From positions 1-39,752 of IMG/VR virus record IMGVR_UViG_3300040815_000410: a stretch of 39,752 bases of DNA; one strand, given 5' to 3'. Under the pieces are notes generated by a model. That model saw nothing but the letters and a program-made list of their open reading frames with translations. It did no database searches and was not told where the DNA came from. Each line of letters starts with the position of its first letter. Within the stretch, counting starts at the first letter, position 1. The translations under genes and the position numbers were made by a program. Of the stretch, positions 3,114 to 34,296 are shown in pieces. This DNA comes from a virus.

Positions 3114-3118
3114 ATGAG

Positions 3119-5710: not shown

Positions 5711-5712
5711 CG

Positions 5713-5720
5713 TATAAATA
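5713..5720 (+). promoter_or_regulatory. T4-type late promoter
   Basis: Exact TATAAATA followed by GTAG, 12 bases before the ATG at 5733. Expected start is near 5726, leaving a leader of only about 7 bases. Confidence 0.72.
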
Positions 5721-5732
5721 GTAGAAAGAGTT

Positions 5733-7094: not shown

Positions 7095-7104
7095 TAATTT
7101 TGAT

Positions 7105-7112
7105 TATAAATA
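7105..7112 (+). promoter_or_regulatory. T4-type late promoter for gp8
   Basis: Exact TATAAATA. Expected start is near 7118, so the AGAGGAA ribosome binding site (7116-7122) lies at the very 5' end of the message, 6-7 bases before the ATG at 7129. Confidence 0.72.
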
Positions 7113-7128
7113 TAAAGAGGAATAACAA

Positions 7129-8625
7129 ATGCCAGCAATTATAACAAACAAATTTAGACTGAATAATGCAGAACAATTCCAGGAATCATTTTCTGAAAGT
7201 GCTGCTACAGTTTACTATCTAGGAATAGGTAGAGCACAGAATTTTGGTACTATAACTAGACCAGACGCAAGAACAGATTACGAAGGTACAGAAACATCAC
7301 CATCTACACCAGGTGATAGTGTACTTAATGAGTTTAAAAACTTTGATGATCTGTTGGCTGCAAAGAAAATTACAGGTTCAGATGTTTCTTTCTGTATACC
7401 AAGAAGAAACTGGACAACAGGTACTACATACGATATTTACAGACACGATTACGAAGAATTTATAACAGGTAGTACAACAACAAGACAAACAGCAAATAGT
7501 GGTGCAACAACTTTATTTGACGCAACTTTCTATGTACTAACTACAGACAGAAATGTTTACAAGTGTTTAGACAATAATGGTAATACTGCTTCAACAGTAG
7601 AACCAACAGGTACTGGAACATCAATTATTACAACTGGTGATGGATACAAGTGGAAATATATGTACACTTTATCTGCTGCCCAACAAGCAAACTTTTTATC
7701 TACTGACTTTATGGCAGTCGGAACAGACTCAACTGTTTCAGCCGCTGCTGTTGATGGTGCTTTAGATACAGTAAAAATTAAAACTGCAGGATCAAGTTAC
7801 ACAGTTTCAGGTGGTGGTACATCTGGAACAATAACTGCTGTACCAATTAGAGGTGATGGTAGTGGTGGTGTTTGCTCTGTAACTTTAACTTCAGGTGCTG
7901 TAACTGCTATAACTGTAACAACTGCTGGCACAGGTTACACTTCAGGTTATATCAGAAACGCTGACATACTTGCAGCTACAAATGCAGGTGGTGCTGGTTC
8001 AGGTGCAGAATTAGATGTTATCATTTCACCAAAAGGTGGTCATGGTTTTGACGCTGTAGAAGAATTAGGTGGATTCTTTGTAATGTTAAATACATCATTA
8101 GAAGGAACAGAAAGTTCTAACTCTGGTGACTTTACGGCTGCAAACGACTTTAGAAAAATTAGTTTAATCAAAAACCCTCAAAACGCAGCTGGTTCAGCTG
8201 CTTCTGCAACAACATTAAGAGGCACATACGCTGTTAAGATTGCAGCCTCTCCAACACCAGGTACTTTTACACCAGATGAAGAAATAAATCAGGCAAGTAC
8301 AGGTGCTGTTGGTATAGTTGTAGAATGGGATTCAACAAACAATATTTTATATTACGTTCAGACAAGGCATAATGACGCTGGTGCTGATAGTAATGGAAAT
8401 GTAACTGCTTTTTCGGGTGCAAACGTAATTACAGGTCAGACTTCAAGTGCAACAGGTACTCCTGACGCCTCTACTCAAACAGTAAACAACGTTTCATTTA
8501 CTTCAGGATATTCTGCTCCAGAATTAAAACATGACTCTGGTGATTTACTATACGTAGAGAATAGAACAAAGATTACAAGAGCAACCGATCAAACTGAAAA
8601 TATCAAACTCATAATTGAGTTTTAA
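7129..8625 (+). CDS. gp8: Baseplate wedge subunit gp8
   Basis: 498 residues against 334 in T4. gp8 is a wedge subunit that binds gp7 and gp10 in the T4 baseplate. Family landmarks in order: IITNKFRLNNAEQF at the N-terminus, CIPRRNW (about 88-95; T4 has IPRRDW), a VYKCLD segment, TGDGYKWKYMY (about 167-177), ELKHDSGDLLYVENR (about 464-478) and ITRATDQTENIKLIIEF at the end. Between about 205 and 300 there is a Gly/Thr-rich insert absent from T4, with GSSYTVSGGGTSG and AGTGYTSGYI, resembling repeats in the protein encoded at 3119. AGAGGAA precedes the start. Its AGAGGAAA-preceded neighbour at 8641 is probably co-transcribed. Confidence 0.9.
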   Translation: MPAIITNKFRLNNAEQFQESFSESAATVYYLGIGRAQNFGTITRPDARTDYEGTETSPSTPGDSVLNEFKNFDDLLAAKKITGSDVSFCIPRRNWTTGTTYDIYRHDYEEFITGSTTTRQTANSGATTLFDATFYVLTTDRNVYKCLDNNGNTASTVEPTGTGTSIITTGDGYKWKYMYTLSAAQQANFLSTDFMAVGTDSTVSAAAVDGALDTVKIKTAGSSYTVSGGGTSGTITAVPIRGDGSGGVCSVTLTSGAVTAITVTTAGTGYTSGYIRNADILAATNAGGAGSGAELDVIISPKGGHGFDAVEELGGFFVMLNTSLEGTESSNSGDFTAANDFRKISLIKNPQNAAGSAASATTLRGTYAVKIAASPTPGTFTPDEEINQASTGAVGIVVEWDSTNNILYYVQTRHNDAGADSNGNVTAFSGANVITGQTSSATGTPDASTQTVNNVSFTSGYSAPELKHDSGDLLYVENRTKITRATDQTENIKLIIEF

Positions 8626-18632: not shown

Positions 18633-19190
18633 AAAGTATTCAGAATACCAACCATCCCAACCTTTTTCTTGTAGATGGTGCATTTGACCTAAAGTGCATA
18701 CACTAAATTGTGGTGGTTTTTGATACATGTAATCTTTAATTGAAGGACAAACTTTATCATAAGTTTTATATTTGATATTTTTATAATACCATTCATCACT
18801 ACCTCTTGTATATGTTTTTATATAATATTCATCATATTTTTTAAATTTATCCCATATATAAGATACATCACCAGTCCATGATACTATAGATGAGTTCAGA
18901 GGTGTATGGGCACGTTCTCTCCACCATGTATCATCTAATAGTGTAAAATCTTTTCTTATAAGATCAGGTAACTTATCATAGATAACTAAATCTAAATCAA
19001 AGTATAGATTTTCACCATCTCTAAACCTATCATACATTTGAAACTTATTAAACCAATTGCCATATAGATCATCTTCTATAACTTCAAAACTATCATACTT
19101 TAGACCAGAGTATTCGTCTATCATATGTTTTAGGTTATCAACATGCCATTGATTAAACTTATCACCAAATCTACAACAAATTATTCTCAT
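18621..19190 (-). CDS. Small glycosyltransferase-like protein (GT-A type)
   Basis: 189 residues, last gene of the leftward operon. MRIICCRFGDKFNQWHVDNL at the start and GENLYFDLDLVIYDKLPDL (about 59-77) carry a DxD motif, the metal and nucleotide-sugar binding signature of GT-A enzymes. NSSIVSWTGD follows where family members have a conserved N-G/S acceptor loop. It is short for a GT-A enzyme, so either minimal or truncated at the C-terminus. The ATG overlaps the stop of the preceding nitroreductase-like gene (ATGA). No donor or acceptor can be named. Confidence 0.6.
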   Translation of the reverse strand: MRIICCRFGDKFNQWHVDNLKHMIDEYSGLKYDSFEVIEDDLYGNWFNKFQMYDRFRDGENLYFDLDLVIYDKLPDLIRKDFTLLDDTWWRERAHTPLNSSIVSWTGDVSYIWDKFKKYDEYYIKTYTRGSDEWYYKNIKYKTYDKVCPSIKDYMYQKPPQFSVCTLGQMHHLQEKGWDGWYSEYFLQR

Positions 19191-20014
19191 TTAATTTCGT
19201 ATATATTAATTTCACGTGGAATATTTGACATGGTATAGAAAACAGCTTTGTCTGGTAACTCATGTACATTACCATAAGGGTCAGTTGCCTTATCTGATTT
19301 AGTTACATCAACAACTGAACATTGTCTATATTTCCAACCTCTTACATCTCGTTCTTCACCTCTGTCCTTTGAGGAAAGATTGTGACCATTAGCTGCACCT
19401 ATTATTAATTCTTTATCATCTGATTCATTTCTAGGTCTTCCTTCTTGCGGATAACCTATACCTATTCCGTACAACATCTTTTTCTTTTTATGTATGTATA
19501 TATCTTCATATATACCCATTCTACGTTCCCAATTAAAATCACAATCAGGTCCTTGACTATTATTCTTATTACAACCAGTTGCATAACCTAATTCAGCTGC
19601 TGATCTCATAACTAATCCTAACGCAGTACCTACTGCAACTAATCCATTTTCCCATCTAGCTGGATGATCTGTTGGAGTAACAGAACCCTCATTTAAATAA
19701 TTTCTACTTGTTGGTGGATGTTTCATAACAAATAACATAAACATATTAGCGTTCATTTGTGGATTACGCCACGTTGCAGGTGGTTTACCTGAATGAGTAA
19801 ATCCCCACGACCACTTATAAAGTTCTTCTATAACTTTTCTATCAGTTGAATAATGAATATCATAATATGCTTCATGTTGTTTTGATGGTGCATTTTGAGC
19901 TACCCACAAAAGATGATCAACATGCTCTTTAGGTATAGTCTTTGAATAGTCCCAATTTCTTTGACACTTTTGAATTTTTTTTATATATTCTTTTTCTTGC
20001 TCTATATCAACCAT
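19187..20014 (-). CDS. Nitroreductase-like FMN oxidoreductase, divergent
   Basis: 275 residues. The family pattern is visible: an N-terminal helix with QRNWDYSKTIPKEHVDHLL (about 18-36), WVAQNAPSKQHEAYYDIH (the conserved aPSk.n.q segment), then RWENGLVAVGTALGLVMRSA with AELGYATGCNKN, the helix and Gly-rich turn that contact FMN. The first position of the usual RRS motif is replaced by QRN. A C-terminal section with YGIGIGYPQEGRPRNE is typical. It is longer than and distinct from the two tandem nitroreductase-like proteins encoded at 24451 and 25156. Start overlaps the upstream radical SAM gene by 8 bases. The substrate is unknown; a flavin-dependent reduction or dehydrogenation is expected. 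Confidence 0.7.
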   Translation of the reverse strand: MVDIEQEKEYIKKIQKCQRNWDYSKTIPKEHVDHLLWVAQNAPSKQHEAYYDIHYSTDRKVIEELYKWSWGFTHSGKPPATWRNPQMNANMFMLFVMKHPPTSRNYLNEGSVTPTDHPARWENGLVAVGTALGLVMRSAAELGYATGCNKNNSQGPDCDFNWERRMGIYEDIYIHKKKKMLYGIGIGYPQEGRPRNESDDKELIIGAANGHNLSSKDRGEERDVRGWKYRQCSVVDVTKSDKATDPYGNVHELPDKAVFYTMSNIPREINIYEIK

Positions 20015-21425
20015 TGTAATATTCCTTTAGTTCTGGAAATACTTCAAATAAATGTGATTCCCATTTTGTTCCTACATATGCTTTGTCCTGTTGTAACATA
20101 TAGTTTAACGTGTCCTGAAAATCATTGTCTGGTTCTTCATCCATTCGTAATGCAGCTTGAATATCAGGCCAGCCTTCATATTTTGGTATAAGTTGATCTT
20201 TTAGTTTTCTAGGTAGATTATGTACTCTTAATGATTTAGGTCTTTCAATCATCAACCAACCTGCACCTCTAATCCCAGGATTATCTCTACAATATTTAAT
20301 TACTTCATCAAATCGTAAAACACTAAAACATGTAATTACAGAATTAACATCAACGTGTGCCTTACCTTTGTATTTGTCTGAATTTAATAATGCTATATTT
20401 TCTTCTATTTCTTTCCAGTTTGATCTTCTTCTTAAATACTCAGCATTCTGATTAATACCATCAATAGAAGCAGTAAATGAAGTTTCTTTAAATTTAGGCA
20501 CAAAGTCAATAAATTTATGTTTGCCTTCGCCTAATTTTGTAAGATTAGTTTGAAATTTAATTTTTATGTGAGGTGCGTGTCCTGTTTTTACTATTTCTTC
20601 TAAAAACTCAAAATACTTTTTCATTATCAATGGCTCACCACCTATAATTTTTATACTATTAAGATATGGAGCAAGTTCTTTTATTTGTTCAATAACATCT
20701 TTTTTGTCTATTTTATTTAAATTATCTTCAACAAGTTTAATTTTATGATTTGTTTTTTCCATTGAACCAAACATCTTTTCACTATAAACATCATGTTTTC
20801 TCATCATATCAATACGCATAGATGAGCTGTCATGGTTACACATATGACAATCTAAATTACATTCTACACCAAAAGACTTTAATTGTATTTGCATTATTCT
20901 TTCGTCAAAAGTCCATACACCTGTCTTCTCGTACATTCTAACGTTTCTTTCTATAGCATCCCAACGTTCTTTAGTACTTGACTCTTTCCACATATGGTGT
21001 GTTCTACGAGATTTACCATATCTCTTTTCATCACTAATACATCTTATACAATGTTCATTAATTGCTTTAGTACCATGTTTTGCAGGATCTAACATTTCTT
21101 TTCTTAAATCATTCATATATTTACTATCTTCCATCCATGATTTTATAGATGTATTGTTTATATTATGATCTTTACTTCCAGCTGCAAGACAACACGCTTT
21201 AAATCTACCATCTAATTCTATAAACATCTCACTAAAAGGAAAATGACAGAACCAACTTCTCTTATCTTTTGCTCTATTCATAATAGAGTTAGGGTCTTTT
21301 TTTCGTTCTTCACCATCTTTTGATAATGTTTCAAACCAACCTGAAGTATCAACATCACCTGGCTTACTGTTAGATACAGCAGTCATTCTTTTTTTATGTA
21401 ATCTCTTATCTAATTTATTTTGCAT
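20007..21425 (-). CDS. Radical SAM enzyme with N-terminal twitch/SPASM domain
   Basis: 472 residues. A cysteine-rich N-terminal domain comes first: Cys60 in SWFCHFPFSEMFIELDGRFK, Cys78-Cys79 (ACCLAAG), and Cys126/Cys129 (HCIRCISDE), a twitch/SPASM auxiliary-cluster pattern. The radical SAM core follows, with Cys189, Cys193 and Cys196 (GVECNLDCHMC, CxxxCxxC) and GGEP at 262-265. Placing the auxiliary domain before the core is the reverse of most SPASM enzymes. It should cleave SAM to a 5'-deoxyadenosyl radical; the substrate is unknown. AGGA lies about 8 bases before the ATG at 21425, favouring it over the internal Met14. Overlaps both neighbours by about 10 bases. Confidence 0.85.
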   Translation of the reverse strand: MQNKLDKRLHKKRMTAVSNSKPGDVDTSGWFETLSKDGEERKKDPNSIMNRAKDKRSWFCHFPFSEMFIELDGRFKACCLAAGSKDHNINNTSIKSWMEDSKYMNDLRKEMLDPAKHGTKAINEHCIRCISDEKRYGKSRRTHHMWKESSTKERWDAIERNVRMYEKTGVWTFDERIMQIQLKSFGVECNLDCHMCNHDSSSMRIDMMRKHDVYSEKMFGSMEKTNHKIKLVEDNLNKIDKKDVIEQIKELAPYLNSIKIIGGEPLIMKKYFEFLEEIVKTGHAPHIKIKFQTNLTKLGEGKHKFIDFVPKFKETSFTASIDGINQNAEYLRRRSNWKEIEENIALLNSDKYKGKAHVDVNSVITCFSVLRFDEVIKYCRDNPGIRGAGWLMIERPKSLRVHNLPRKLKDQLIPKYEGWPDIQAALRMDEEPDNDFQDTLNYMLQQDKAYVGTKWESHLFEVFPELKEYYNG

Positions 21426-23002: not shown

Positions 23003-23591
23003 AAAATTTACCAACTATCATAAATCTAGTTCCTCTATCATCTGTAATACTATCTTCAACTAATACTTTAGCGTTTTCAGGCAATTGATTTTTAAATTCT
23101 TCATTATCATTTACACAATTAACATGACCTTTTATATCAAACATATTATTTGATGTAAAGGCAAAGTAAGCATTAGAGTCATGTAGTGCTTTTAGTTCTT
23201 TCATAGGTTTCATATGCTCACAAGAAGTATTAATTATGAGATTAGCATATCGTATTCGTCCGTATCTATTTTCGTTGAACACATCACTTGTTATAAAATC
23301 TACATTTTCATAATGATTAAATATTCTACTTTTTGCCATACTAACAACAGCTTTATCTAAATCAATTAACGATATTCTTTTTGCTTCTTTTAAAGCAGGT
23401 ATCAATATACTGCCATACCAACCACCTAGTATCGTAATTTCAGATTTATCATTTACAACGTTTAAATCTCTAATATGAGATATTAATTTTTCTTTAGTTT
23501 TAAATTGATTAGGACTAAATGAATCTAAAAGATCATTATTGTGTCTGGCTTCTGCCATTATATTCTTAAACAGTTGTAAATCAATGTTCAT
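22983..23591 (-). CDS. SAM-dependent methyltransferase-like protein (class I)
   Basis: 202 residues. The Rossmann-type motif I appears as ITILGGWYGSILIPAL (Gly56-Gly60 region), followed by the acidic strand end RISLIDLDKAVVSMAKSR (Asp77/Asp79, ribose binding) and NVDFITSDVFNE (motif III). ANLIINTSCEHMKPMKEL occupies the catalytic loop. No DNA-methyltransferase (D/N)PP(Y/W) motif is present, so a small molecule, sugar or protein target is more likely. The start forms TAATG with the upstream PP-loop gene stop. Confidence 0.7.
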   Translation of the reverse strand: MNIDLQLFKNIMAEARHNNDLLDSFSPNQFKTKEKLISHIRDLNVVNDKSEITILGGWYGSILIPALKEAKRISLIDLDKAVVSMAKSRIFNHYENVDFITSDVFNENRYGRIRYANLIINTSCEHMKPMKELKALHDSNAYFAFTSNNMFDIKGHVNCVNDNEEFKNQLPENAKVLVEDSITDDRGTRFMIVGKFYEKNNI

Positions 23592-24460
23592 TATATTTTA
23601 TGAGCTGTAGATATTTTATATCTTTCCATTGTTTCTGGTGAATTGAAATCATAGACACCATATGCCCAATATTTTTCTCTACAAGGCCAACATATTTTAC
23701 ATGGTTCTTTACCTGGATTTCTATATGTTCTATTATGTTCTTTAGCATAAACAGGATACATATGTATTTCAGTTTCACATGATTCAGTAACAGGAAATAA
23801 AGTTTTATCAAGTCCCAACTCTCTTACCATATCTGCAACTTCTTTTTTATTCCAGTTACGAAAAGGTCTAAACTCATATTTGTGATGACCAAAATACTTA
23901 TCTCTAGTTTTAGAGAATAGTTTATCTTTTTTAGTATTTCTGTCATGTGGAAACTTTCTAAATTCGTGTGTGATGATTTCAGGTTGTTCTTCTACAGGTG
24001 GGTTTAAAGTTTCACCTGAAAGATATATGTTTAAGTTTACACCTAGTTTATGATACTTTTCCCACAATCCCCAAAAATGCTCTCTTTGAAAAATATCTTT
24101 CGGGTTATATTTTTGATTAGTTTTTTCCCAATTATCTATCATCTTTTGATTTTTCTTAAATCCTTCAGTTGTAAAAAACGCAATATCAGAATGTAAAAGA
24201 TTTTCATTTTCTGGTTTTAAGATACTTAATGCGTTAAGAACATTATCTACAACATCCATAGCTGCAGGTCTTAATTGGTTAAATAATGTAATTGGTAATA
24301 TTTTCTTATTAGGATATTTACTCATTGTGAGAAAACACAAGAACGCTGAGTCTATACCGCCACTCAACCTCATTCCTATTATATCTTGTTCGGATATTAT
24401 TTTGTCAATATCTGGTGTAAATACTTTATCTAGTATTTTGTTTAATTTTTCTATATCCAT
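23591..24460 (-). CDS. PP-loop ATPase, QueC-like with four-Cys zinc site
   Basis: 289 residues. IGMRLSGGIDSAFLCFL holds the PP-loop SGGIDS (33-38), which binds ATP and adenylates a carbonyl substrate. The C-terminal section has Cys228 (TESCETE) and Cys254, Cys257, Cys260 (EPCKICWPCREKYWAYG), the arrangement of the zinc site in 7-cyano-7-deazaguanine synthase (QueC). At 289 residues it is longer than QueC (about 230), and no QueD, FolE or guanine transglycosylase gene is seen here, so a preQ0 role is not assured; another amidation or nitrile-forming reaction is possible. GAAGGAGA precedes the ATG at 24460, which overlaps the nitroreductase stop by 10 bases. Confidence 0.75.
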   Translation of the reverse strand: MDIEKLNKILDKVFTPDIDKIISEQDIIGMRLSGGIDSAFLCFLTMSKYPNKKILPITLFNQLRPAAMDVVDNVLNALSILKPENENLLHSDIAFFTTEGFKKNQKMIDNWEKTNQKYNPKDIFQREHFWGLWEKYHKLGVNLNIYLSGETLNPPVEEQPEIITHEFRKFPHDRNTKKDKLFSKTRDKYFGHHKYEFRPFRNWNKKEVADMVRELGLDKTLFPVTESCETEIHMYPVYAKEHNRTYRNPGKEPCKICWPCREKYWAYGVYDFNSPETMERYKISTAHKI

Positions 24461-25152
24461 TTTATTATCTCCTTCATTTCAGGTTTAATATCTTCATGTT
24501 TTATTTTCCAATCTTCCATGTCTTCTTGTCTATATCTCTTAGCATATCCACAACTCATCATAACAATGGGTCTAGTGTCAACCATATTTAGGCCTGCTTT
24601 ATGCCAGTTATGTGGCCTTCTATTGAAACAAGAGTTATAAGATATATCAAGTCCTTCTTCTAACAAATAGTTTGTCAAGTTTGCAATGAATATACCTACT
24701 TCTACTGCAACACTATCAATTATCTTTTCTATATGACTTTCATGTGCTTGATCAAAGAAGTGACCTGTTTCAACTTGTTTCTGATAATAAACATTTGGTT
24801 GAGCAAGTCTGCTGTGTACCGTAATTAAATATGGGTTTTCTTTTACGTGTTTATAATATGGGTTTTCATATATACCTACTTTTGCGCCTTGAGTTTGTAT
24901 CGCTTGACCATCTTTAACTGCTTGATCTTCTACATCAGCATGACACTTCACTACTAAACCATGTATTGCCTCTTTCTCTTTCACTTTATCAGGTCCCCAT
25001 ACAAGTGCCTGATACGCCATTGCATTATTTTTAGACGGTGATGTTTTCCACGCCTTGTATAATGCTCGTTCTATAATTTCTTTAGGTGGAATATCTTTTT
25101 TATAAGTCTTTACGTGTTTTCTTTTTTGTTCTAATAAATCAAAATGTTTCAT
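24451..25152 (-). CDS. Nitroreductase-like protein, tandem copy B
   Basis: 233 residues. Nitroreductase fold: LLEQKRKHVKTYKKDIPPKE at the N-terminus (FMN phosphate-binding K/R position), ALYKAWKTSPSKNNAMAYQ (about 31-49), then IIDSVAVEVGIFIANLTNYL and the LEEGLDISYNSCFNRRP turn, and a C-terminal RPIVMMSCGYAKRYR. It is a paralogue of the adjacent upstream gene at 25156: the motifs, lengths and order match throughout, and stretches around 24647-24678 and 25349-25381 remain nearly identical in DNA. Such proteins usually work as dimers with FMN; two copies could form a heterodimer. Three bases separate the two genes. Confidence 0.78.
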   Translation of the reverse strand: MKHFDLLEQKRKHVKTYKKDIPPKEIIERALYKAWKTSPSKNNAMAYQALVWGPDKVKEKEAIHGLVVKCHADVEDQAVKDGQAIQTQGAKVGIYENPYYKHVKENPYLITVHSRLAQPNVYYQKQVETGHFFDQAHESHIEKIIDSVAVEVGIFIANLTNYLLEEGLDISYNSCFNRRPHNWHKAGLNMVDTRPIVMMSCGYAKRYRQEDMEDWKIKHEDIKPEMKEIIKWI

Positions 25153-25155
25153 TTT

Positions 25156-25845
25156 TTATACCCATGTAATTATATCCTGATGTTCAGGTTTTACATCTGT
25201 CTTATGAGCTGCACTTCCCATATGATTTCTTCTATATACTTCACCATAACCACAACTTAACATTAATATAGGTCTAGTTGTAATATTAGTCAATCCCCAT
25301 TTTTGCCAATATTTAACTTCTCTTGTAAAACAAGAATTATACGATACATCAAGTCCTTCTTCTAATAAATTGTTTGTTAAGATTTGAGCAAATAGTCCTA
25401 CTTCTACAGCAACACTATCAATTATTTTGCTCATATGGCTTTTGTGTGCTTGATCAAAAAACATACCTTTCTTTTCAATACTTTCTTTATGATATTCGTT
25501 AGGTGTAGCAAGTCTTTGATGAAATGTAAACATATAAGGATTAGTTCTTATATGTTCAAAATATTTGTTACCTGTAGATACTGATACAGCTAATCCTTCT
25601 TTTAATCCTGTTTTTTCAGTTTCAATGCAAGATTTTTGAGTTAGATTATATAATGCTTGTTTTTCAGATTTTTTATCAGGACCCCAAACAACAACCTCAT
25701 ATGCCATTGCATTGTTTTTTGAAGGAGTTGTTTTCCATGCTTTATATAATGCGTCTTCTATTATTTCCTTGTCTGGTATTTTATCACTATAATTGAATAC
25801 TTGTTTTCGTTTTGTTTCTAATAAATCAAACGTGTTCATTTGCAT
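25156..25845 (-). CDS. Nitroreductase-like protein, tandem copy A
   Basis: 229 residues, paralogue of the neighbouring copy at 24451. Shared blocks: LLETKRKQVFNYSDKIPDKE, ALYKAWKTTPSKNNAMAYEV, FFDQAHKSHMSKIIDSVAVE, LLEEGLDVSYNSCFTRE and RPILMLSCGYGEVYRR. The central section (about 60-110) is the least alike, so substrate preference may differ. ATG at 25845 is preceded by AAGG at a proper distance; a second ATG at codon 3 is possible. The start overlaps the end of the carbamoyltransferase gene by 10 bases. Reaction unknown; FMN-dependent oxidation or reduction of a small molecule or peptide ring is expected for the fold. Confidence 0.78.
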   Translation of the reverse strand: MQMNTFDLLETKRKQVFNYSDKIPDKEIIEDALYKAWKTTPSKNNAMAYEVVVWGPDKKSEKQALYNLTQKSCIETEKTGLKEGLAVSVSTGNKYFEHIRTNPYMFTFHQRLATPNEYHKESIEKKGMFFDQAHKSHMSKIIDSVAVEVGLFAQILTNNLLEEGLDVSYNSCFTREVKYWQKWGLTNITTRPILMLSCGYGEVYRRNHMGSAAHKTDVKPEHQDIITWV

Positions 25846-27341
25846 ATTACCTTTCCGTTAATTACTAACATGTCCAATTGTGTTCTCTTAAAGGTATTTA
25901 TTGCTTCTTTAGGACTCTCTACTATAGGCTCTCTACAATTAAAACTAGTATTCAATAACATTGGTATGCCTGTTATCTTATAAAACTCATTAATAATATT
26001 GTAAAACTTTTCGTTAAATTTTTTATTAACAGTTTGTATTCTTGCTGTATTATCAACGTGTGTAATACCTGGTACTGTATCTTTCTTAACTTTACATATT
26101 CTACTCATATAAGGACTAGGCAATCTCGTATCAAAATATTCTTTGTAATGTTCTTCTAATACAGCAGGTGCAAAGGGTCTAAAGTCTTCTCTCATTTTTA
26201 TAGTATGATTGATAATATCTTTAATATTAGGATTACGTGGGTCTGCAAGTATTGATCTATTACCTAATGCACGATTACCACTTTCTGATTTGCCTTGAAA
26301 CCACCCGACTATCTTACCATCAGCAATTGCCTGAGCAATCTTTTTATAGTCAGCGTCTTCGCCTACATTATGTTCGTATTCTATACCAGCAAATGTTTCT
26401 GTTTTATGTACATTATAATTTATCATATAATCAGCATGTTGATAAACACCTATTGCTTGTCCTTCATCACCTACAGCAGGTGGTACAAATACATTCTCAT
26501 AATGTTTTGTAAATTCTTCATTCATATATCCATTGTAAGCAACGCCACCTGCAATACATAAGTTATCACAAGTTTTTAATGGATAGACATATTCTTTTAT
26601 TTTATCTATTGTAAATTTTTGTAGTGTATGTGCTAAATCATCTATGTTGTCTAACTTAATCTGTTTAAAATGTGCTTGTTTCTTTTCAGTTATAGGTCCT
26701 GATAATATAGTTTCAAATATGTTGTAGTAGTATTCACTATATTTACCATACCCAACTTTACCCATTAACTTACTAGCACCTAGTGTGCCAAAACCTGTTA
26801 AGTTAGACATATGATTCCATAACCAACCAATAGGTAGTTTATCTGACAAGTCTATTAACTTTAGGTCTTTGTCAAAGAATACACATCTAAATTTTGATCC
26901 TATACCATCAATTGCTAGTATATCTGATTGTTCAAAATTAGAGTTTATAAAAGCATATGTGGCGTGTGATTGATGATGGTCTATATAATATATTCCGTCT
27001 TTATAATAATAGTCCCATAACGTTTTAGGATCATAATTAAATATTTCATCATGCCCTTTTAATGTTGTATTAAGTAATTCTTCTTTTGCTTTTCTTATAC
27101 CACCATAGGTATATGTAAATGCTAAAATACCATTGTCAGGTCTTTTAAAATACTTTTCAGTAAATTCATCATTCAATCTATAGTCGCCAGGATTTAATAT
27201 GTCTGATTGATGATCATATGCCTCAGCATGATAGGGTAGATTATGTTTAAATCTAGTAAATCTTTCTCTTTGATTATGAAAGACACCATCATATGTATTG
27301 TGGTCGTGTAAATTTAGTGCTACTGCAAATATTTTAGCCAT
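25836..27341 (-). CDS. NodU/TobZ-type O-carbamoyltransferase
   Basis: 501 residues. The family transfers a carbamoyl group from carbamoyl phosphate through carbamoyl-AMP to a sugar or antibiotic hydroxyl. The N-terminal Kae1-like domain has RERFTRFKHNLP, the metal-binding IDHHQSHATYAF (HxxxH), ILAIDGIGSKFRCVFF and CIAGGVAYNGYMNEEF. The C-terminal YrdC-like domain has GWFQGKSESGNRALGNRSIL, REDFRPFAPAVL and PMLLNTSFNCREPIVESP. The usual HDSSA near the N-terminus reads HDHNT here, and the protein is about 70 residues shorter than TobZ. All main catalytic motifs look intact. Related enzymes are known in marine myoviruses. Overlaps both neighbours by 8-10 bases. Confidence 0.88.
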   Translation of the reverse strand: MAKIFAVALNLHDHNTYDGVFHNQRERFTRFKHNLPYHAEAYDHQSDILNPGDYRLNDEFTEKYFKRPDNGILAFTYTYGGIRKAKEELLNTTLKGHDEIFNYDPKTLWDYYYKDGIYYIDHHQSHATYAFINSNFEQSDILAIDGIGSKFRCVFFDKDLKLIDLSDKLPIGWLWNHMSNLTGFGTLGASKLMGKVGYGKYSEYYYNIFETILSGPITEKKQAHFKQIKLDNIDDLAHTLQKFTIDKIKEYVYPLKTCDNLCIAGGVAYNGYMNEEFTKHYENVFVPPAVGDEGQAIGVYQHADYMINYNVHKTETFAGIEYEHNVGEDADYKKIAQAIADGKIVGWFQGKSESGNRALGNRSILADPRNPNIKDIINHTIKMREDFRPFAPAVLEEHYKEYFDTRLPSPYMSRICKVKKDTVPGITHVDNTARIQTVNKKFNEKFYNIINEFYKITGIPMLLNTSFNCREPIVESPKEAINTFKRTQLDMLVINGKVICK

Positions 27342-28203
27342 TTAATAACCTCGCATATTTTCTCATAGGAAAGTGACCTTTAGGTTCAACCCATTCCATA
27401 CATGTTTTACAATAGTTTTCATATTTAAACAATTGAAAATTCATCATCTTATCTACGTTTTCCTGTGTTATGTCAAATGTTTTTGAGTGAATAATATTAT
27501 TCGCAAATTTCTTACTACAATGTACAATCTTTCTTGTTTCAAAATTGATAACAGGTACCATAGGAAAGGCTGCACACATCTTACGATCTATTTCATCTGC
27601 TTGAGTATGTACTTCTAATACATCATCTTTGTTAGGTGTTCTACCATTAAATGATTTCCACATTGTATTCTTGTGATCTAACTGTTTCATTTCTTCAGGA
27701 AACAGATGTTTATATTTAAAAAAGTTAGGTGTTTTTACACATAGATTGTAATTGTTATAATCATTTTCTTTTATATAACCATAAGGTGGTAGTAAATCTA
27801 AACTACCAAGTTTTTTAATACCATCTTCGTAAAAATCTAATATGTTATGTTCAACATAAAGTATATCAGGATCTTTTAGTATATGTGGATATCTTTTACG
27901 TACAAAAGAGTTTGATAGTACTGAACACACATGATTAGGATTCTTTTTAACTTCAGCAATAACATCATCTAAATTCTTAATAAGGCCTGGCTCACCACCT
28001 AAAAGACAAACACGTATCTTATAATTTCTTAAATAGTGTAATGTTTGTTTTAGGAAATCAATATCAACTGTCAAGTTTCTCATCTCTAAAGTATAACTCG
28101 TACAATAATGACAATCTTTATTACATGACATTGACATAAAGAAGTCTATGGCTAAATAATTTTCTTGTATTTCTTGTAACGTTTTCAATTTCCTGCTCTC
28201 CAT
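27334..28203 (-). CDS. Radical SAM enzyme with C-terminal SPASM-like cysteines
   Basis: 289 residues. Cys27, Cys31 and Cys34 (SMSCNKDCHYC) form the CxxxCxxC [4Fe-4S]/SAM site; VCLLGGEPGLIKNLDDV holds GGEP at 69-72. In the C-terminal part Cys210 (KMCAAFPMVPVINFE), Cys229 (IVHCSKKF), Cys265 and Cys268 (YCKTCMEW) could bind an auxiliary cluster as in SPASM/twitch enzymes. So this one has both parts in a single chain, in the usual order, unlike its neighbours. It is compact (typical 350-400). It overlaps the radical SAM core gene just upstream by 19 bases. Substrate unknown. Confidence 0.82.
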   Translation of the reverse strand: MESRKLKTLQEIQENYLAIDFFMSMSCNKDCHYCTSYTLEMRNLTVDIDFLKQTLHYLRNYKIRVCLLGGEPGLIKNLDDVIAEVKKNPNHVCSVLSNSFVRKRYPHILKDPDILYVEHNILDFYEDGIKKLGSLDLLPPYGYIKENDYNNYNLCVKTPNFFKYKHLFPEEMKQLDHKNTMWKSFNGRTPNKDDVLEVHTQADEIDRKMCAAFPMVPVINFETRKIVHCSKKFANNIIHSKTFDITQENVDKMMNFQLFKYENYCKTCMEWVEPKGHFPMRKYARLLNG

Positions 28204-28808
28204 TTTTTACTAGGCAATAAAGGATCATTTTCACCATTTTGCCATCTACCAGATTTCATAACATAAAAATCAACACCTATATCTCTAGCCATTTGCTTAC
28301 ATGTATCTATATCGTTTTCATTATAGTTAAATACAATGTATTGCCACATAGGTTTTTTATATAGTATTTTAGTGGCTTCTTTCATAACTCTAAATAACTT
28401 TTCACCGTCTTGGTTGATACGATACTTATGGCTATCTTTAGGAAGACCATCTATAGAAAATCGCCACAACGCTCTTGGATTTGTTTTAAATGCTTCTATA
28501 TACCACTTTTCAGATTTAGCTGCACTAGCATGTTGAACAGCCACACTTATTTCTTTATCATAACACATCTTTAATATTTCTAAAAATTTAGGATGGTGCA
28601 CAGGATCTGAATATTGTCCTTCAAAGTTTATATGATTAAAATATTTTATTAACTTATTAAAACTATCTATAGGCACATCTACACCTGGTACTTTCTTACC
28701 TTCGTTTACATAATCCCATTGTCTTGCACAATTAGGACATAATAAGGAACATCTATGAGTAGTATCTAAATTTATTGCATCTCTTTTGATAAATTCTTTA
28801 TAGTTCAT
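28185..28808 (-). CDS. Free-standing radical SAM core, pair 2
   Basis: 207 residues. Cys20, Cys24, Cys27 (HRCSLLCPNCARQW) make the CxxxCxxC cluster site. In place of GGEP it has FEGQYSDPVHHPKFLEILKM, where SDP aligns with GEP. LWRFSIDGLPKDSHKYRINQ and MWQYIVFNYNEND are strongly shared with the core encoded at 31540. The chain stops after the radical SAM barrel and has no SPASM domain; that domain is encoded by the overlapping upstream gene (28805-29209), joined by ATGA. The two products may work as a complex. Length is about half that of ordinary SPASM enzymes. Confidence 0.82.
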   Translation of the reverse strand: MNYKEFIKRDAINLDTTHRCSLLCPNCARQWDYVNEGKKVPGVDVPIDSFNKLIKYFNHINFEGQYSDPVHHPKFLEILKMCYDKEISVAVQHASAAKSEKWYIEAFKTNPRALWRFSIDGLPKDSHKYRINQDGEKLFRVMKEATKILYKKPMWQYIVFNYNENDIDTCKQMARDIGVDFYVMKSGRWQNGENDPLLPSKKWRAGN

Positions 28809-29209
28809 TTTTTCTCTTTTGTGTATCTTTGTGAATAAGTAGATTTTTCATAATCTACTATATTTCCCTCTTTGTCATAATGAGTATCTTCTCTTGTTGC
28901 CTTAATAGGCGTTCCATCAGTTTTAGTACCACAAGTTTCTAAACATGCTAAACATGGTGGTATATCTTTTGTTAAAAGATCGTAAAATTCTTTCCATTCT
29001 TTAGTTTCAAATATGTCATCTATCTTGTTATAGTCTGATACCTTGCTAACTTTAACTAATGGTTGAAACCGAGGATCTCTCATATTCTTCTTACTATCAC
29101 AATAACAACAAGGTAGTAACTCACCTTTGTTTGACATAGCAAAAGGAAACTTTTCAAAACACATAGGTTTCATTTTTATGTTTTTTATATCTTTATATCT
29201 GTTGGTCAT
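28805..29209 (-). CDS. Free-standing SPASM/twitch protein, pair 2
   Basis: 134 residues, no radical SAM core. Cysteines lie as in SPASM/twitch auxiliary domains: Cys17 (KPMCFEKFPFAMSNKGE), Cys34, Cys35, Cys37 (LLPCCYCD), then Cys86, Cys89, Cys93 (PPCLACLETC). The DIFETKEWKEFYDLL helix is the standard iFn..ew..fr segment of SPASM domains. Closely related to the protein at 31212. Here the SPASM gene is upstream of its radical SAM partner, opposite to the other pair. The final 35 residues are hydrophilic and lack cysteine. It presumably binds one [4Fe-4S] cluster and helps place substrate in its partner. Confidence 0.75.
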   Translation of the reverse strand: MTNRYKDIKNIKMKPMCFEKFPFAMSNKGELLPCCYCDSKKNMRDPRFQPLVKVSKVSDYNKIDDIFETKEWKEFYDLLTKDIPPCLACLETCGTKTDGTPIKATREDTHYDKEGNIVDYEKSTYSQRYTKEKK

Positions 29210-30455
29210 AAAATTTATTAAAGGCTATCTTTAACTTTCTTTTGTTTTTAAATGGTTCTTCTTCTATGTAACCTGGTGTTTGATATATCTTCTCTACAAT
29301 ATATTCGTAGATAGGTTCTGTTGTTTCTTTTAGTAAACTTTTATCAAATAGATCATCACCTAATATTTTTTTCATATCATCTACAAATTGATCTTTCTTG
29401 TATTCTAACGTAAGTATGATTGTTTGAATAATCTTATTAACTTCTTGTTTAGTCATCCATGGGTGTATAGGTAAAGACAATATAGTATCACAAACTATTT
29501 TGCTTATAAACATATCATCTGCTCTATGTTCTATTTCTCTATACATTTTGTTTTCAGATAATGGTAACTCATAATGTACTTTTGCGTCTAATACTTTTTT
29601 AAGATTATCTCTAACTTCTTTATTTTGTAATCTGATAACATACTTGTGATAGTTATGGTCTAAACCATTTGTTGTAGGTTGTATTGTAACATATTCTTGT
29701 AATTGTTCATCATACATTTTAGCAATTTCTTGTCTTCTATTTTGCCATTCTTTCATCTTACTTAATCTAAAATTAATAAACTCGGCATTCATTAATAACA
29801 TTTTAGAGTTGTAACCTAATATCTCACGCTCACCATGTTTTCTTAACTTCTTAAACATCTCTGCTTTTTCTTTGTCATCTGTACAGATAGCCCCACCACC
29901 TGCAATCCCAGCAACAACTTTGTTTGCATTGAAACTTAATGTTGATATGTCACCTATTGATCCTGCCTTGACACCATTTAGACTTGCACCTAGTGATTGA
30001 GCTGCGTCTTCAATAAATGCGATATTCTTTTCTTTACAAAATTCTAATATCTCTTTTGTATCTGACATGTTACCAAATAGATGTGGATAAACAATTGCTT
30101 TTACTTTGTCCGAATACATACGTTTAATACTATCTAATGACATATGATAAGACAATATATCAATCTCACAAAATACAGGTGTTGCACCGACCATAGATAC
30201 ACAAGACGCTGAAGATATCCATGAGAATTGTGGTACTAATACCTCGTCACCTTTTCTTATACCTAAACTTCTTAAAGCAAAATGTAATGCGTCTGTGCCG
30301 TTACTACACGCAACAACATATTTTCTACCTGTGTATAGTTTAAGTTTATTTTCTAAAAACTCAACGTTTGCTTCCTGTTCTTTTTGCATTGACTTTTCAA
30401 AAAGTTGTAGATAATCAACTTTGTTTTCTTTAAAATCTCTATCCCAACATGTCAT
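29193..30455 (-). CDS. DegT/DnrJ/EryC1/StrS-type sugar aminotransferase
   Basis: 420 residues. PLP-dependent transamination of nucleotide keto-sugars, for amino sugars in surface glycans or antibiotics. Motifs: ACSNGTDALHFALRSLGI (49-66), EVLVPQFSWISSASCV, VYPHLFGN (123-129), AFIEDAAQSLGASLNG with Asp150 (PLP pyridine contact), and STLSFNANKVVAGIAGGG with Lys179, the Schiff-base lysine, where GIAGGG replaces the usual GEGG. After the normal end near residue 365 there is an extra tail of about 55 residues (EPIYEYIVEKIYQTPGYIEE), not part of the family. GAGG precedes the ATG. Overlaps the neighbours by 17 bases each. Confidence 0.87.
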   Translation of the reverse strand: MTCWDRDFKENKVDYLQLFEKSMQKEQEANVEFLENKLKLYTGRKYVVACSNGTDALHFALRSLGIRKGDEVLVPQFSWISSASCVSMVGATPVFCEIDILSYHMSLDSIKRMYSDKVKAIVYPHLFGNMSDTKEILEFCKEKNIAFIEDAAQSLGASLNGVKAGSIGDISTLSFNANKVVAGIAGGGAICTDDKEKAEMFKKLRKHGEREILGYNSKMLLMNAEFINFRLSKMKEWQNRRQEIAKMYDEQLQEYVTIQPTTNGLDHNYHKYVIRLQNKEVRDNLKKVLDAKVHYELPLSENKMYREIEHRADDMFISKIVCDTILSLPIHPWMTKQEVNKIIQTIILTLEYKKDQFVDDMKKILGDDLFDKSLLKETTEPIYEYIVEKIYQTPGYIEEEPFKNKRKLKIAFNKFYDQQI

Positions 30456-31215
30456 GTATAAACCTCGCTAGTTTTTGTTGTCCTTGTCTATTAGGATGTA
30501 AATCTATTTTTGATATTCTATCAGTAGTATTATCTAATACTTTATCAGATAAACTATAACCATTTAATCTTGGATCTGTAGGCCATCCTATAAAATTATT
30601 ATTAATTTTTTCATAATATGGACTATTGTGTATTTGTGCCAAGTACTCTTTTTCTCTTTTTTCTTTCCAATGTTTTTCATCAACTGTTAAATCTTCTGGT
30701 TTATTTAAAACAGGAATTTGTTTATTATCTAAAACTTGTTTTGTTCTTCTGTTGATAAGTTCTTGCCATAGATAACCTTTAAATAAATCTACCATTTGAA
30801 ATTGTTTATAAGGTAGTTTAAAATATTCACACACAGTTTGAAGACTATAATAATATCTTAATGACCTATCAATCCAATAATTCATAAAACCTTTTGTATC
30901 ATACATATCATTTGTCCATTTTGCTTTTTGTAAATATAAACTTTCTATCTGATAGTCACGTCTAGGTGCTGTACTCCAAGCTGCGATAACTAAACCTATT
31001 TTAGAGTGATCAATAGTTTGTAATTTATCAATTATATTGCTGTAGATATATTCTTGTCCTGCACCTGACTCACTAACATTTATAAGTTCCATATCTAATC
31101 TATCAGCAAGTAATTGTGGCCATTTAGGCCAACTAACATCTAATTCAGGATGGTGTATAGATGTAAATCTTTCGTTTGAATAACTACACCCAGCAACTAA
31201 TAATATTTTTTTCAT
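30439..31215 (-). CDS. SGNH/GDSL-family hydrolase-like protein
   Basis: 258 residues. Block I is ILLVAGCSYSNERF with Ser11 as likely nucleophile (GCS in place of GDS, common in phage members). ELINVSESGAGQEYIYSNII (about 43-62) supplies block II Gly and Asn. VIAAWSTAPRRDY covers the block III strand, where the usual GxND is replaced by AAWST. Block V is SKIDLHPNRQGQQKLARFI with Asp238 and His240. The family includes sugar O-acetylesterases and acetyltransferases. The long middle (about 90-210) is aromatic and charged, without known domains. ATGA overlap with the upstream SPASM gene. A role in removing or adding acyl groups on a glycan fits the context but is inferred. Confidence 0.7.
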   Translation of the reverse strand: MKKILLVAGCSYSNERFTSIHHPELDVSWPKWPQLLADRLDMELINVSESGAGQEYIYSNIIDKLQTIDHSKIGLVIAAWSTAPRRDYQIESLYLQKAKWTNDMYDTKGFMNYWIDRSLRYYYSLQTVCEYFKLPYKQFQMVDLFKGYLWQELINRRTKQVLDNKQIPVLNKPEDLTVDEKHWKEKREKEYLAQIHNSPYYEKINNNFIGWPTDPRLNGYSLSDKVLDNTTDRISKIDLHPNRQGQQKLARFIHDMLG

Positions 31216-31550
31216 ATTAAGTCTTCTATTTTTTGTCTATCTCTACCTGTTCTTTTCTTACAATGAGTAATACAAGTAGGTATGACTTTTTTTAAATTTT
31301 TTTCTGCTAAATTTCTTGCAAAATCTTGCCATTCTTTTGTTAGTAATATATCTTCAATACTATTATGATCACTTATTTTACTAACTTTTAACATCTCTTT
31401 CATAACAGGATGTTCTAACGCACTAGATTGATCCATCCAACAACAAGGTATTAATTCACCTCTATTAGTCATTGCAGCTTGCATACGTTTTTCTATTGAA
31501 CCATGTGCTGGCATACATCTAGGTTCTAATATTATTTTATCAGATGGCAT
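31212..31550 (-). CDS. Free-standing SPASM/twitch protein, pair 1
   Basis: 112 residues. Cys12 (EPRCMPAHG), Cys36-Cys37 (MTNRGELIPCCWMD), Cys93 and Cys97 (IPTCITHC) form the auxiliary iron-sulphur pattern; NSIEDILLTKEWQDFARNL is the typical SPASM helix. No SAM-binding core. It starts inside the end of the radical SAM core gene (11-base overlap, different frame), with the core upstream: the same order as a normal single-chain enzyme, but split. A frameshift in the overlap could in principle fuse them. It is a paralogue of the protein at 28805, which has one more cysteine after CC. Confidence 0.75.
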   Translation of the reverse strand: MPSDKIILEPRCMPAHGSIEKRMQAAMTNRGELIPCCWMDQSSALEHPVMKEMLKVSKISDHNSIEDILLTKEWQDFARNLAEKNLKKVIPTCITHCKKRTGRDRQKIEDLI

Positions 31551-32202
31551 TAAGTGATACCTCTTTATTCTTTGGTCTTAATGGGTCATCATTATCATTC
31601 CAACGTGATGATTGTACTAACATAAATCCTACACCATTTTCTTTTGCCATTTGTTTAGCTTCTTCAATATGATCTTCATTATAGTTAAATATAATATATT
31701 GCCAAACTGGTGTTACCTCTAAATGTTTTTTAGATTCAATCATTATATTAAAAAGTTTTTTACCATCTTGGTTTACTCTATACTTGTGACTTTCTTCTGG
31801 TAAACCATCTATACCAAATATCCATTGAGCATGTGGATTTGCTTTAAAACATTTTATAAAATATTCTTTAGATTTTTGTGAAGCTGCATTATGTATTTCA
31901 ACTATAGTCTTTTTCTTATACAACATTTCTAATATTTCAGGAAACTTAGGATGATGTACAGGATCAGATAATTGACCACAAAAAATAAAATCATTATAAT
32001 AGTCTGATATTTTATCTATTTCTTTTAAAGTAAGATCACGTCCTGGTACTTTTTTACCCTCGTTACGCCATTGTCTTTGTCTTTGACATCTAGGACATTC
32101 AAGTGGACACCTAAAACTTATATCAATATTCAATGATCTTCTACTCATAAAATATTGAATATCTTTAGTTATCTCTAACTCTTTTTGTATTTCTTTGCTC
32201 AT
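31540..32202 (-). CDS. Free-standing radical SAM core, pair 1
   Basis: 220 residues. Cys32, Cys36, Cys39 (SFRCPLECPRCQRQRQW) bind the cluster that cleaves SAM. FCGQLSDPVHHPKFPEILEM replaces the GGEP region, and WIFGIDGLPEESHKYRVNQ plus VWQYIIFNYNEDHIEEAKQM match the core at 28185 almost block for block; both also share NEGKKVPG after the cysteines. The chain ends without SPASM cysteines; the overlapping downstream gene at 31212 supplies that domain. ATGA overlap with the gene upstream. Likely a two-component radical SAM enzyme; substrate unknown. Confidence 0.83.
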   Translation of the reverse strand: MSKEIQKELEITKDIQYFMSRRSLNIDISFRCPLECPRCQRQRQWRNEGKKVPGRDLTLKEIDKISDYYNDFIFCGQLSDPVHHPKFPEILEMLYKKKTIVEIHNAASQKSKEYFIKCFKANPHAQWIFGIDGLPEESHKYRVNQDGKKLFNIMIESKKHLEVTPVWQYIIFNYNEDHIEEAKQMAKENGVGFMLVQSSRWNDNDDPLRPKNKEVSLNAI

Positions 32203-33059
32203 ATTAGTTTTAATAAATTTTTTACTTTATCTTTACTTTGTGTTAGGCAGATCACAGGCCTATTCCAATATACTTTGCCGCCATCATGTTTATATTTATT
32301 CCTTAAATAAACGACTTCTTTTTTGAGCCATCTAAACTCCATGAATAGTCTTGGAGCAGGATCAAAGTTAGGTTTTGTATAGACATATGTTTCAAACTTA
32401 CCTAATATATTTGTGATTGGCACCATTAGATTGTTTAGTTTAGGGTTTATAAATTTGTCGTTGTATGTTATAATACCGTGATCAGGATAATTATGTATAT
32501 GTTTTTCTACTTCTCTATAGTATATCTCATTTGTGCCTAAAAACAAATACTTAAATTGTATATCTTCTTTTATAGGTTTGTATATACTAAAGTTTATTAT
32601 CTTTTCAAATTGTTCTCCTACACCATTGACATATACATCATGGTCGCATAAGTCATAAACTTTTTTAGGTTTGAAATATTGTAACGCAATAGGATATTCT
32701 CTAACATGATTTTCAGAATATACAGATATAAGATTACCACTAAACAATAAATGTAAAGTTAGAAGTTGATCATTATTGTAAGTATGTTTATTTAAGTATG
32801 CTAAAGTTATTTGACTTCTACCCATAATCAATGTTATATCATTTGACGTAGGTGTGTAAAAATCAAATATTACATTTTCATATTTGACATAACATTCATT
32901 TAGAGCATTGATATAAGATTGTTCAGAAAATCTATGGTCTCTTATGATTATCAGTTTTGCTTTTACACCTAAATCATTCAGAAAACAACAATGTTCATAA
33001 CTATAATGTAGAAGACCATCACCAGGCTTACTTGTACATACTATATTTACATTTTTCAT
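32199..33059 (-). CDS. Glycosyltransferase-like protein, first gene of leftward operon
   Basis: 286 residues. The start reads VNIVCTSKPGDGLLHYSYEH, like the N-terminal loop of GT-B transferases. The C-terminal part has GKFETYVYTKPNFDPAPRLF followed by MEFRWLKKEVVYLRN, resembling the GT-B donor-site segment in which a Pro-Arg and Glu precede a Gly or Leu turn. No DxD is clear. Identification is by overall pattern and is tentative; other nucleotide-binding proteins are possible. The ATG at 33059 lies 5-6 bases downstream of a perfect sigma70 promoter and has no Shine-Dalgarno, so it may be translated from a leaderless message. Stop overlaps the radical SAM start (ATGA). Confidence 0.5.
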   Translation of the reverse strand: MKNVNIVCTSKPGDGLLHYSYEHCCFLNDLGVKAKLIIIRDHRFSEQSYINALNECYVKYENVIFDFYTPTSNDITLIMGRSQITLAYLNKHTYNNDQLLTLHLLFSGNLISVYSENHVREYPIALQYFKPKKVYDLCDHDVYVNGVGEQFEKIINFSIYKPIKEDIQFKYLFLGTNEIYYREVEKHIHNYPDHGIITYNDKFINPKLNNLMVPITNILGKFETYVYTKPNFDPAPRLFMEFRWLKKEVVYLRNKYKHDGGKVYWNRPVICLTQSKDKVKNLLKLI

Positions 33060-33126: not shown

Positions 33127-34296
33127 ATGATTTTAGACCAAAATATAGACTTTTCCAAGTTGAGAACATACAGATTAGATAGAGTAAAAAAAGAGCTAGA
33201 AAAACAAAATATAGAAGCCTGTATATTGTTTGATCCAGTTAATGTTAGATATGCGTTAGACACTACTAACATGAGTGTTTACAATTTACACAATTTAACA
33301 AGATATTGTTTTGTGCCAGTCAATGGACCAACAATTCTTTATGAGTATTTTGGTTGTGAATATCACGCTAAACATTTAAATCTAATTGACGAAATAAGAC
33401 CTGCAATCACATGGGATTATTTTAGTCATGGAGATCAGGCAGAAAAAGAATTAAAAAAATGGGTTAATGATATAAAAGATTTATCAAAATATTTTAAAAA
33501 TAAAAAAATCGCAATTGATGTAATTAATGGACCCGCTGTTACAGCATTGAATAAAGAAGGTATTGAAGTAGTTGACGCTAAATCAGTACTTGAACAGGCA
33601 AGAGTTATTAAATCACCAGAGGAACTAAAATGTATTAAAGAAGCAGTGAAAGTTGTAGAAATTGGTGTTACAAGAATGAGAGAAGAATTAAGAGCTGGCA
33701 TGACAGAAAATCAGTTATGGTCAATTTTACATAAAACAAATATTGAATATGGTGGTGAATGGATAGAAGGCAGATTATTAGCTTCAGGTCATAGAACAAA
33801 TCCTTGGATGCAACAATGTAGTCACAAAGTTATTGAAAGTGGAGAATTAGTAACTTTTGATACAGATACAGTTGCGTCTTATGGATACTTGGCTGATTTT
33901 TCCAGAGCTTTCGTTGAAGGAAATAAGTTTAGTGATTATCAGAAAAAATTATATTCAATTGCTGTTGAACAAATAAATCACAATTCAGAATTGATTAAAC
34001 CTGGTTTATCATTTAAAGAGTTTTTATCTAAATGTTATAAACTTCCAGAACCTTATTATGGTAATCGTTATCCTGCCATAGTTCATGGAACTGGTCTTTG
34101 TGATGAATGGCCATTTATTAAATGGAATACAGACGGCGGCGAACAAAGTGGACAATTTGAAAAAGATATGACTATTTCAGTTGAGGCATATGTAGGTGAA
34201 GTAGGTGGTAAAGAAGGTGTTAAATTAGAACAACAATTTCATGTTGGTGAAAATGGACTTGAATTATTATCCCACCATCCATTAGAGAATTTGTAA
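33127..34296 (+). CDS. M24-family metalloenzyme, DddP-like (DMSP lyase candidate) or Xaa-Pro peptidase
   Basis: 389 residues. An N-terminal creatinase/prolidase-type domain (about 10-155; IEACILFDPVNVRYALDTTN) precedes a pita-bread M24 domain (about 165-385). Metal ligands: Asp245, Asp247 and Asp257 (VTFDTDTVASYGYLADFSR), His320 (AIVHGTGLCDEWPF), Glu353 (TISVEAYVGE) and Glu368 (VKLEQQF). The DxD pair, its 12-residue distance to the third Asp, the 15-residue Glu-Glu gap and Asp326 six residues after the His follow the Fe-binding and catalytic pattern I recall for the DMSP lyase DddP, not that of prolidase or PepP. DMSP is a major substrate of SAR11 cells. Other M24 enzymes with FDTD exist, so activity remains open. 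Divergent from the leftward operon; no good promoter seen. Confidence 0.8.
   Translation: MILDQNIDFSKLRTYRLDRVKKELEKQNIEACILFDPVNVRYALDTTNMSVYNLHNLTRYCFVPVNGPTILYEYFGCEYHAKHLNLIDEIRPAITWDYFSHGDQAEKELKKWVNDIKDLSKYFKNKKIAIDVINGPAVTALNKEGIEVVDAKSVLEQARVIKSPEELKCIKEAVKVVEIGVTRMREELRAGMTENQLWSILHKTNIEYGGEWIEGRLLASGHRTNPWMQQCSHKVIESGELVTFDTDTVASYGYLADFSRAFVEGNKFSDYQKKLYSIAVEQINHNSELIKPGLSFKEFLSKCYKLPEPYYGNRYPAIVHGTGLCDEWPFIKWNTDGGEQSGQFEKDMTISVEAYVGEVGGKEGVKLEQQFHVGENGLELLSHHPLENL

Follow-up and report, generated by a model that had tools for sequence, protein, structure and literature searches.

Twitch and SPASM radical SAM enzymes are single-chain proteins: the auxiliary domain extends the chain of the radical SAM core at its C-terminal end (PMC9012708). 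A marine virus record raises the question of how such an enzyme is built when core and auxiliary domain are encoded by separate genes, twice within one gene island and in opposite orders. The window, that is, the whole stretch of 39,752 nucleotides analysed here, is a 39.8-kb virus record of a T4-like myophage, in which baseplate genes (1257-8625) are followed by a variable island. This layout fits the "host recognition cluster" of pelagimyophages, which lies within the structural region and, in the parts of its description considered here, contains tail fibres, glycosyltransferases and radical SAM cassettes (PMC7029224). The island type and the phage group are thus the same, but split enzymes are absent from those parts of the description. 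The genes concerned are listed below in the order of transcription.

32199-33059, minus strand: glycosyltransferase-like protein with a GT-B fold, directly upstream of core1 and conserved in 39 loci
31540-32202, minus strand: core1, radical SAM core of 220 aa, with CPLECPRC as its CX3CX2C motif; the chain stops directly behind the barrel
31212-31550, minus strand: AUX1, separate twitch-type auxiliary Fe-S protein of 112 aa, with Cys 12, 36, 37, 93 and 97
30439-31215, minus strand: SGNH/GDSL-like protein of 258 aa, a weak call from synteny and a Pfam GDSL match below the cut-off (E=0.012)
29193-30455, minus strand: DegT/DnrJ/EryC1 aminotransferase of 420 aa (276.6 bits)
28805-29209, minus strand: AUX2, separate twitch-type auxiliary Fe-S protein of 134 aa, with Cys 17, 34, 35, 37, 86, 89 and 93
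28185-28808, minus strand: core2, radical SAM core of 207 aa, with CSLLCPNC
27334-28203, minus strand: third radical SAM protein, 289 aa (Pfam Radical_SAM, 36.5 bits, above 29.5)
25836-27341, minus strand: NodU/Nol-like carbamoyltransferase
23591-24460, minus strand: PP-loop ATP-pyrophosphatase-like protein with SGGxDS, a conserved syntenic neighbour with profile matches to NAD synthetase and QueC in the PDB
20007-21425, minus strand: single-chain radical SAM protein of 472 aa with an N-terminal twitch module (NF033640, 277.9 bits, cut-off 170)

The island also holds two adjacent paralogous nitroreductase-like genes (24451-25152 and 25156-25845) and a third nitroreductase (19187-20014), and an M24 metallopeptidase of the creatinase/prolidase type (33127-34296) lies on the strand opposite to the cassette.

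The preliminary description of this DNA had named the four ORFs of the two pairs, all on the minus strand, and had placed AUX2 before core2, the reverse of pair 1, with an SGNH gene and a DegT gene between the pairs; the ORF positions agree with it on each of these points, but the SGNH assignment itself is weak. Core1 and AUX1 overlap by 11 nt, and AUX2 and core2 by 4 nt (ATGA). The same description had regarded the two pairs as paralogous. They are indeed paralogues, with similarity far beyond chance: 52% identity over 197 aa between the cores (E=3e-76) and 38% over 89 aa between AUX1 and AUX2 (E=1e-20).

To which enzyme class do the two parts belong? In a set of 86 non-redundant core-AUX pairs collected from phage records, IMG/VR (with core1, core2 and AUX as baits) and GTDB genomes, where cores and AUX genes in tandem arrays were paired exclusively, the SAM-cluster motif CX3CX2C is present in 86/86 cores. 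Core1 and core2 both score under the gathering score of Pfam Radical_SAM (E=4e-4 for core1), and relatives exceed it with 31-35 bits; by the motif, by these scores of the relatives and by the fold match given below, the core is a member of the radical SAM superfamily. The AUX proteins share the cysteine set C...GX4CC...CX3C, with the PxC part kept in 84/86, GX4C in 77/86, PCC in 83/86 and CX3C in 86/86, and match Pfam SPASM only under its gathering score (E=0.009 for AUX1). The second SPASM motif, CX2CX5CX3C behind GX4C, was found in 0/86, so AUX is better described as a one-cluster twitch-type module than as a full SPASM domain. The first suggestion of a separately encoded SPASM/twitch domain therefore stands as regards the separate gene and the twitch type, but not as regards a full SPASM domain. 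The module has predicted ligands for one cluster, and within the fusion model described below it aligns with BtrN and MoaA.

Searches with more specific profiles gave no closer assignment. Many NCBIfam and Pfam matches were set aside as generic radical SAM similarity under the cut-off, among which the tungsten-oxidoreductase maturase family TIGR04317 gave 29.4 and 26.4 bits with a cut-off of 380. In searches against PDB sequences, the core profile matched GDGT-MAS alone (5e-4) and the AUX profile gave spurious matches only (IL-31, Sul7). The family N_Twi_rSAM (NF033640) resembles the AUX2-core2 arrangement in that its auxiliary module precedes the core, but it is a single chain with a different core family; neither the cores nor the AUX proteins of the window match it, only the 472-aa protein passes its cut-off, and a screen with family HMMs for further single chains with an N-terminal AUX found none other than NF033640 members. 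The third radical SAM protein (27334-28203), the syntenic neighbour directly downstream, is likewise a single chain and has its own C-terminal cysteine set, with C210, C229, C265 and C268 invariant. Together with the NF033640 gene, the island thus unites core-first split, AUX-first split, N-twitch and C-twitch-like arrangements.

The extent of the split became clear from the relatives. Of the 86 pairs, 68 are split, 54 with the core first and 14 with AUX first, and 18 are fused; both pairs of the window are split, and the rule that one chain carries the auxiliary domain behind its core fails for split pairs. A total of nine changes between the three arrangement states is required on the core tree, and its well-supported branches demand no fewer than two for AUX-first and no fewer than three for fused. 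When AUX alone served as bait, 69 of 78 distinct AUX ORFs adjoined a core (52 core-first, 17 AUX-first, none fused); one lay at a contig edge, and the eight without an adjacent core all had one within the locus. In some of these eight a whole gene stands between core and AUX, namely the PP-loop gene in L208 and L221 and a 1.5-kb N-twitch-type radical SAM gene in L191, L194 and L195, which makes AUX an independent chain acting in trans. In the others (L154, L158 and L159), as in L102/L104, a single core is accompanied by two AUX genes that differ from each other, possibly alternative subunits for the same core.

Among 50,697 phage records, a single close relative is from culture, Pelagibacter phage Mosig EXVC030M, in which core and AUX are separate genes (84 and 85), 57% and 37% identical, respectively, and are annotated as a molybdenum cofactor enzyme and a hypothetical protein. 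Its gene order is like that of the window (GT-like, core, AUX, SGNH-like, DegT, radical SAM, carbamoyltransferase), but pair 2 is lacking. In cellular genomes the split pair is rare, since a search of 297 genomes from the order of the MAG concerned gave only three matches. On two Hyphomicrobiales MAG contigs (174 and 228 kb) cell genes flank core and AUX (L127 6013-6965, L128 5950-6917); the flanks differ and the DNA shared by the contigs is the 944-bp core+AUX unit only, possibly a mobile two-gene unit. Some of the "cellular" matches, such as L122 with a full phage cassette, are probably virus contigs inside MAGs. With respect to the cassette itself, the DegT gene of the window (29193-30455) has a C-terminal extension of about 75 aa that is a separate small gene in relatives (L122 3823-4149; also L013 and L017), possibly a second split within the same cassette.

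Could the split be an artefact, either a sequencing or assembly error or the decaying remnant of a fused gene? The preliminary description had itself pointed to sequencing error, and to related genomes with a single fused gene, as observations that would speak against it. Fused relatives do exist, as counted above, but most pairs are split; sequencing error is ruled out by dozens of independent contigs in both orders, by pairs with a whole gene between them, and by Mosig, whose genome was sequenced at 348x coverage (PMC7892664). Decay is at odds with the retention of all key cysteines and with dN/dS values below 1 against homologous viruses, 0.26-0.44 for the cores and 0.43-0.68 for the AUX genes, by which all four window genes are under purifying selection. 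We give error or decay practically no credence. Programmed frameshifting, by which core and AUX ORFs would be translated as one chain, deserves hardly more: most pairs do overlap by 1-20 nt, and there are fused homologues, but the overlaps use either of the two alternative frames (-4 and -8/-11/-14), the start Met of AUX is conserved, AUX-first pairs could not give a core-AUX chain, and whole genes separate the members of some pairs. By dN/dS, overlap frames, the loci found with the AUX bait and the gene-separated pairs, sequencing error, pseudogenes and frameshift fusion were all rejected. The split of core and AUX into two genes is strongly supported, and the two-chain arrangement is common in uncultured marine phages; it had at first been called unusual, which holds in comparison with described enzymes but not among marine viral contigs, where it is frequent in both orders.

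Given two cores and two AUX proteins in one island, cross-pairing between the four had been considered as well. The trees of core and AUX mirror each other (r=0.82, the best of 500 permutations reaching 0.28), a signal that may partly reflect shared descent. Neighbour pairing fits better than swapped pairing in 21/21 two-pair genomes, of which about a dozen are informative, six being fused-fused and three having nearly tied tandem pairs. Moreover, pair 1 and pair 2 of the window are each co-inherited as a unit in L004, L006, L043 and L045. Cross-pairing thus finds no support over evolution, and each AUX is likely the partner of its neighbouring core, as far as co-inheritance indicates.

How two such chains may fit together can be viewed from a natural fusion, L057 (335 aa), which is nested within the split clade. 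Its junction, ...SFTPNIGI-M-KKLIPKC, aligns with the split core end and the AUX start Met of the relative L014, and the Met retained where AUX would start suggests, from the alignment, a recent re-fusion. We modelled L057 by AlphaFold2 with alignment rows made of split cores and AUX proteins, without Mosig rows, and obtained pLDDT 91.4 and pTM 0.90, the fold being known in this way for the natural fusion. By VIA-align over both domains, the model matches MoaA with Z 17.6 (3.7 A, 256 residues), SuiB with 17.6, SkfB with 17.2, BlsE and DesII with 17.0, anSME with 16.7 and BtrN with 15.1, at identities of only about 10-16%; since Z differences of up to 1 count as ties, we single out none of these enzymes as the closest. 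The two domains are predicted to pack as in MoaA, SuiB, BlsE and DesII. With MoaA, BtrN, BlsE, DesII, SuiB and anSME the phage proteins share CX3CX2C, the fold of core plus auxiliary domain (Z 15-18, from the fused relative) and a C...GX4C...CXnC set; unlike the auxiliary domain of these enzymes, the phage AUX has a gene of its own, which may precede the core, follow it or lie some genes apart from it.

A small, free-standing protein with an Fe-S-type cysteine set might also serve as an electron carrier or a cluster-delivery protein for the core and not as a catalytic subunit, and intermolecular electron transfer can drive radical SAM enzymes, as for PapB (PMC10470005). We regard this as unlikely: AUX shares homology with the auxiliary domain of the fused form, which is packed in a MoaA/BlsE-like manner in a confident model, and it is inherited with its own core, unlike a general carrier. 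The best reading, and a probable one, is that each pair forms one two-subunit twitch radical SAM enzyme, with AUX docked on the core barrel to complete the active site. The core chain would hold the SAM-cleaving [4Fe-4S] cluster by CX3CX2C, and the AUX chain, as a free-standing twitch-type module, one auxiliary [4Fe-4S] cluster; AUX would dock at the position taken by the C-terminal extension in enzymes of the MoaA/BlsE/DesII type. In such a heterodimer, with its two clusters on two chains, the reduced SAM cluster would generate a 5'-deoxyadenosyl radical that takes a hydrogen from a substrate lying between the chains, while the auxiliary cluster would bind the substrate or accept an electron, the two roles proposed for it in twitch enzymes (PMC9012708).

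Regarding the substrate, the family occurs in three genomic settings. The first is the host-recognition island, with the GT-B-fold gene, SGNH-like, DegT, carbamoyltransferase, PP-loop and nitroreductase genes and further radical SAM genes; the product of the GT-B-like gene (32199-33059) gave a model with pLDDT 90.1 and pTM 0.88 that matches PimA (Z 15.2) and BshA (14.9). The second is the T4-like virion operon, where fused genes lie between the sheath stabiliser, TerS and TerL, and AUX-first pairs between TerL and the tail sheath in 8/8 structural-context cases with both sides known; these copies, fused or AUX-first, have a characteristic architecture at each site (L080, L087, L089, L105, L110, L114, L118 and others). 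The third is the stand-alone pair on the two Hyphomicrobiales contigs. In L072 (6632-7717) and L073 (6615-7673), AUX is fused C-terminally to a domain of about 250 aa, for which a Pfam search gave no match; recognised by eye, it looks like a glycosyltransferase (GT-A-like, with the DxD-like IIIMDIDQI).

From the island neighbours (GT, DegT, SGNH-like and carbamoyltransferase genes) and from this fusion of AUX with a glycosyltransferase-like domain, we infer that the window pairs probably modify a sugar or glycan; neither the virion-operon copies nor the stand-alone pair indicates a glycan. The virion-operon setting makes a protein or peptide substrate, such as a protein of the tail or its fibres, the main rival, as many SPASM enzymes act on such substrates. 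Relatives are embedded in that operon, the window island adjoins baseplate genes, and SuiB, SkfB and anSME are among the closest folds; but the window copies themselves have GT, DegT, carbamoyltransferase and SGNH-like genes as neighbours, the two chromosomal loci share the pair only and hence no common precursor-peptide ORF of the kind that adjoins RiPP radical SAM maturases, and AUX is joined to the glycosyltransferase-like domain in L072 and L073. A split enzyme acting on protein is accordingly a distinct but lesser possibility. With a sugar or glycan as substrate, the two paralogous pairs would most likely differ in their substrates or serve different steps of one phage-encoded pathway within the host-recognition island.

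Radical SAM systems that need a second protein are known, such as PqqE/PqqD and AprD4/AprD3, but the partner there is a peptide chaperone or a reductase and not the auxiliary-cluster domain itself. Searches of the open-access literature found no report of a heterodimeric radical SAM enzyme or of a SPASM/twitch module split off as a subunit; the enzyme class is known, and its two-chain architecture appears to be undescribed. Split genes are overlooked or given the wrong name when a profile search requires both domains in a single gene, as with the "hypothetical" AUX of Mosig. A Baltic survey listed 261 viral "ahbD" genes but had the two domains together on three contigs only (PMC9301287), a shortfall that may reflect the split of core and AUX. 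Direct evidence for the role of the auxiliary cluster "has long remained elusive" (PMC9012708), and with the two clusters on separately purifiable chains, each could be reconstituted, mutated or omitted alone. For the phages themselves we suggest, tentatively, that marine T4-like phages may have turned the AUX domain into an exchangeable free subunit: with AUX found before the core, after it, genes away, fused to it, fused to a glycosyltransferase-like domain or sometimes doubled per core, the same radical core could be used for more than one reaction.
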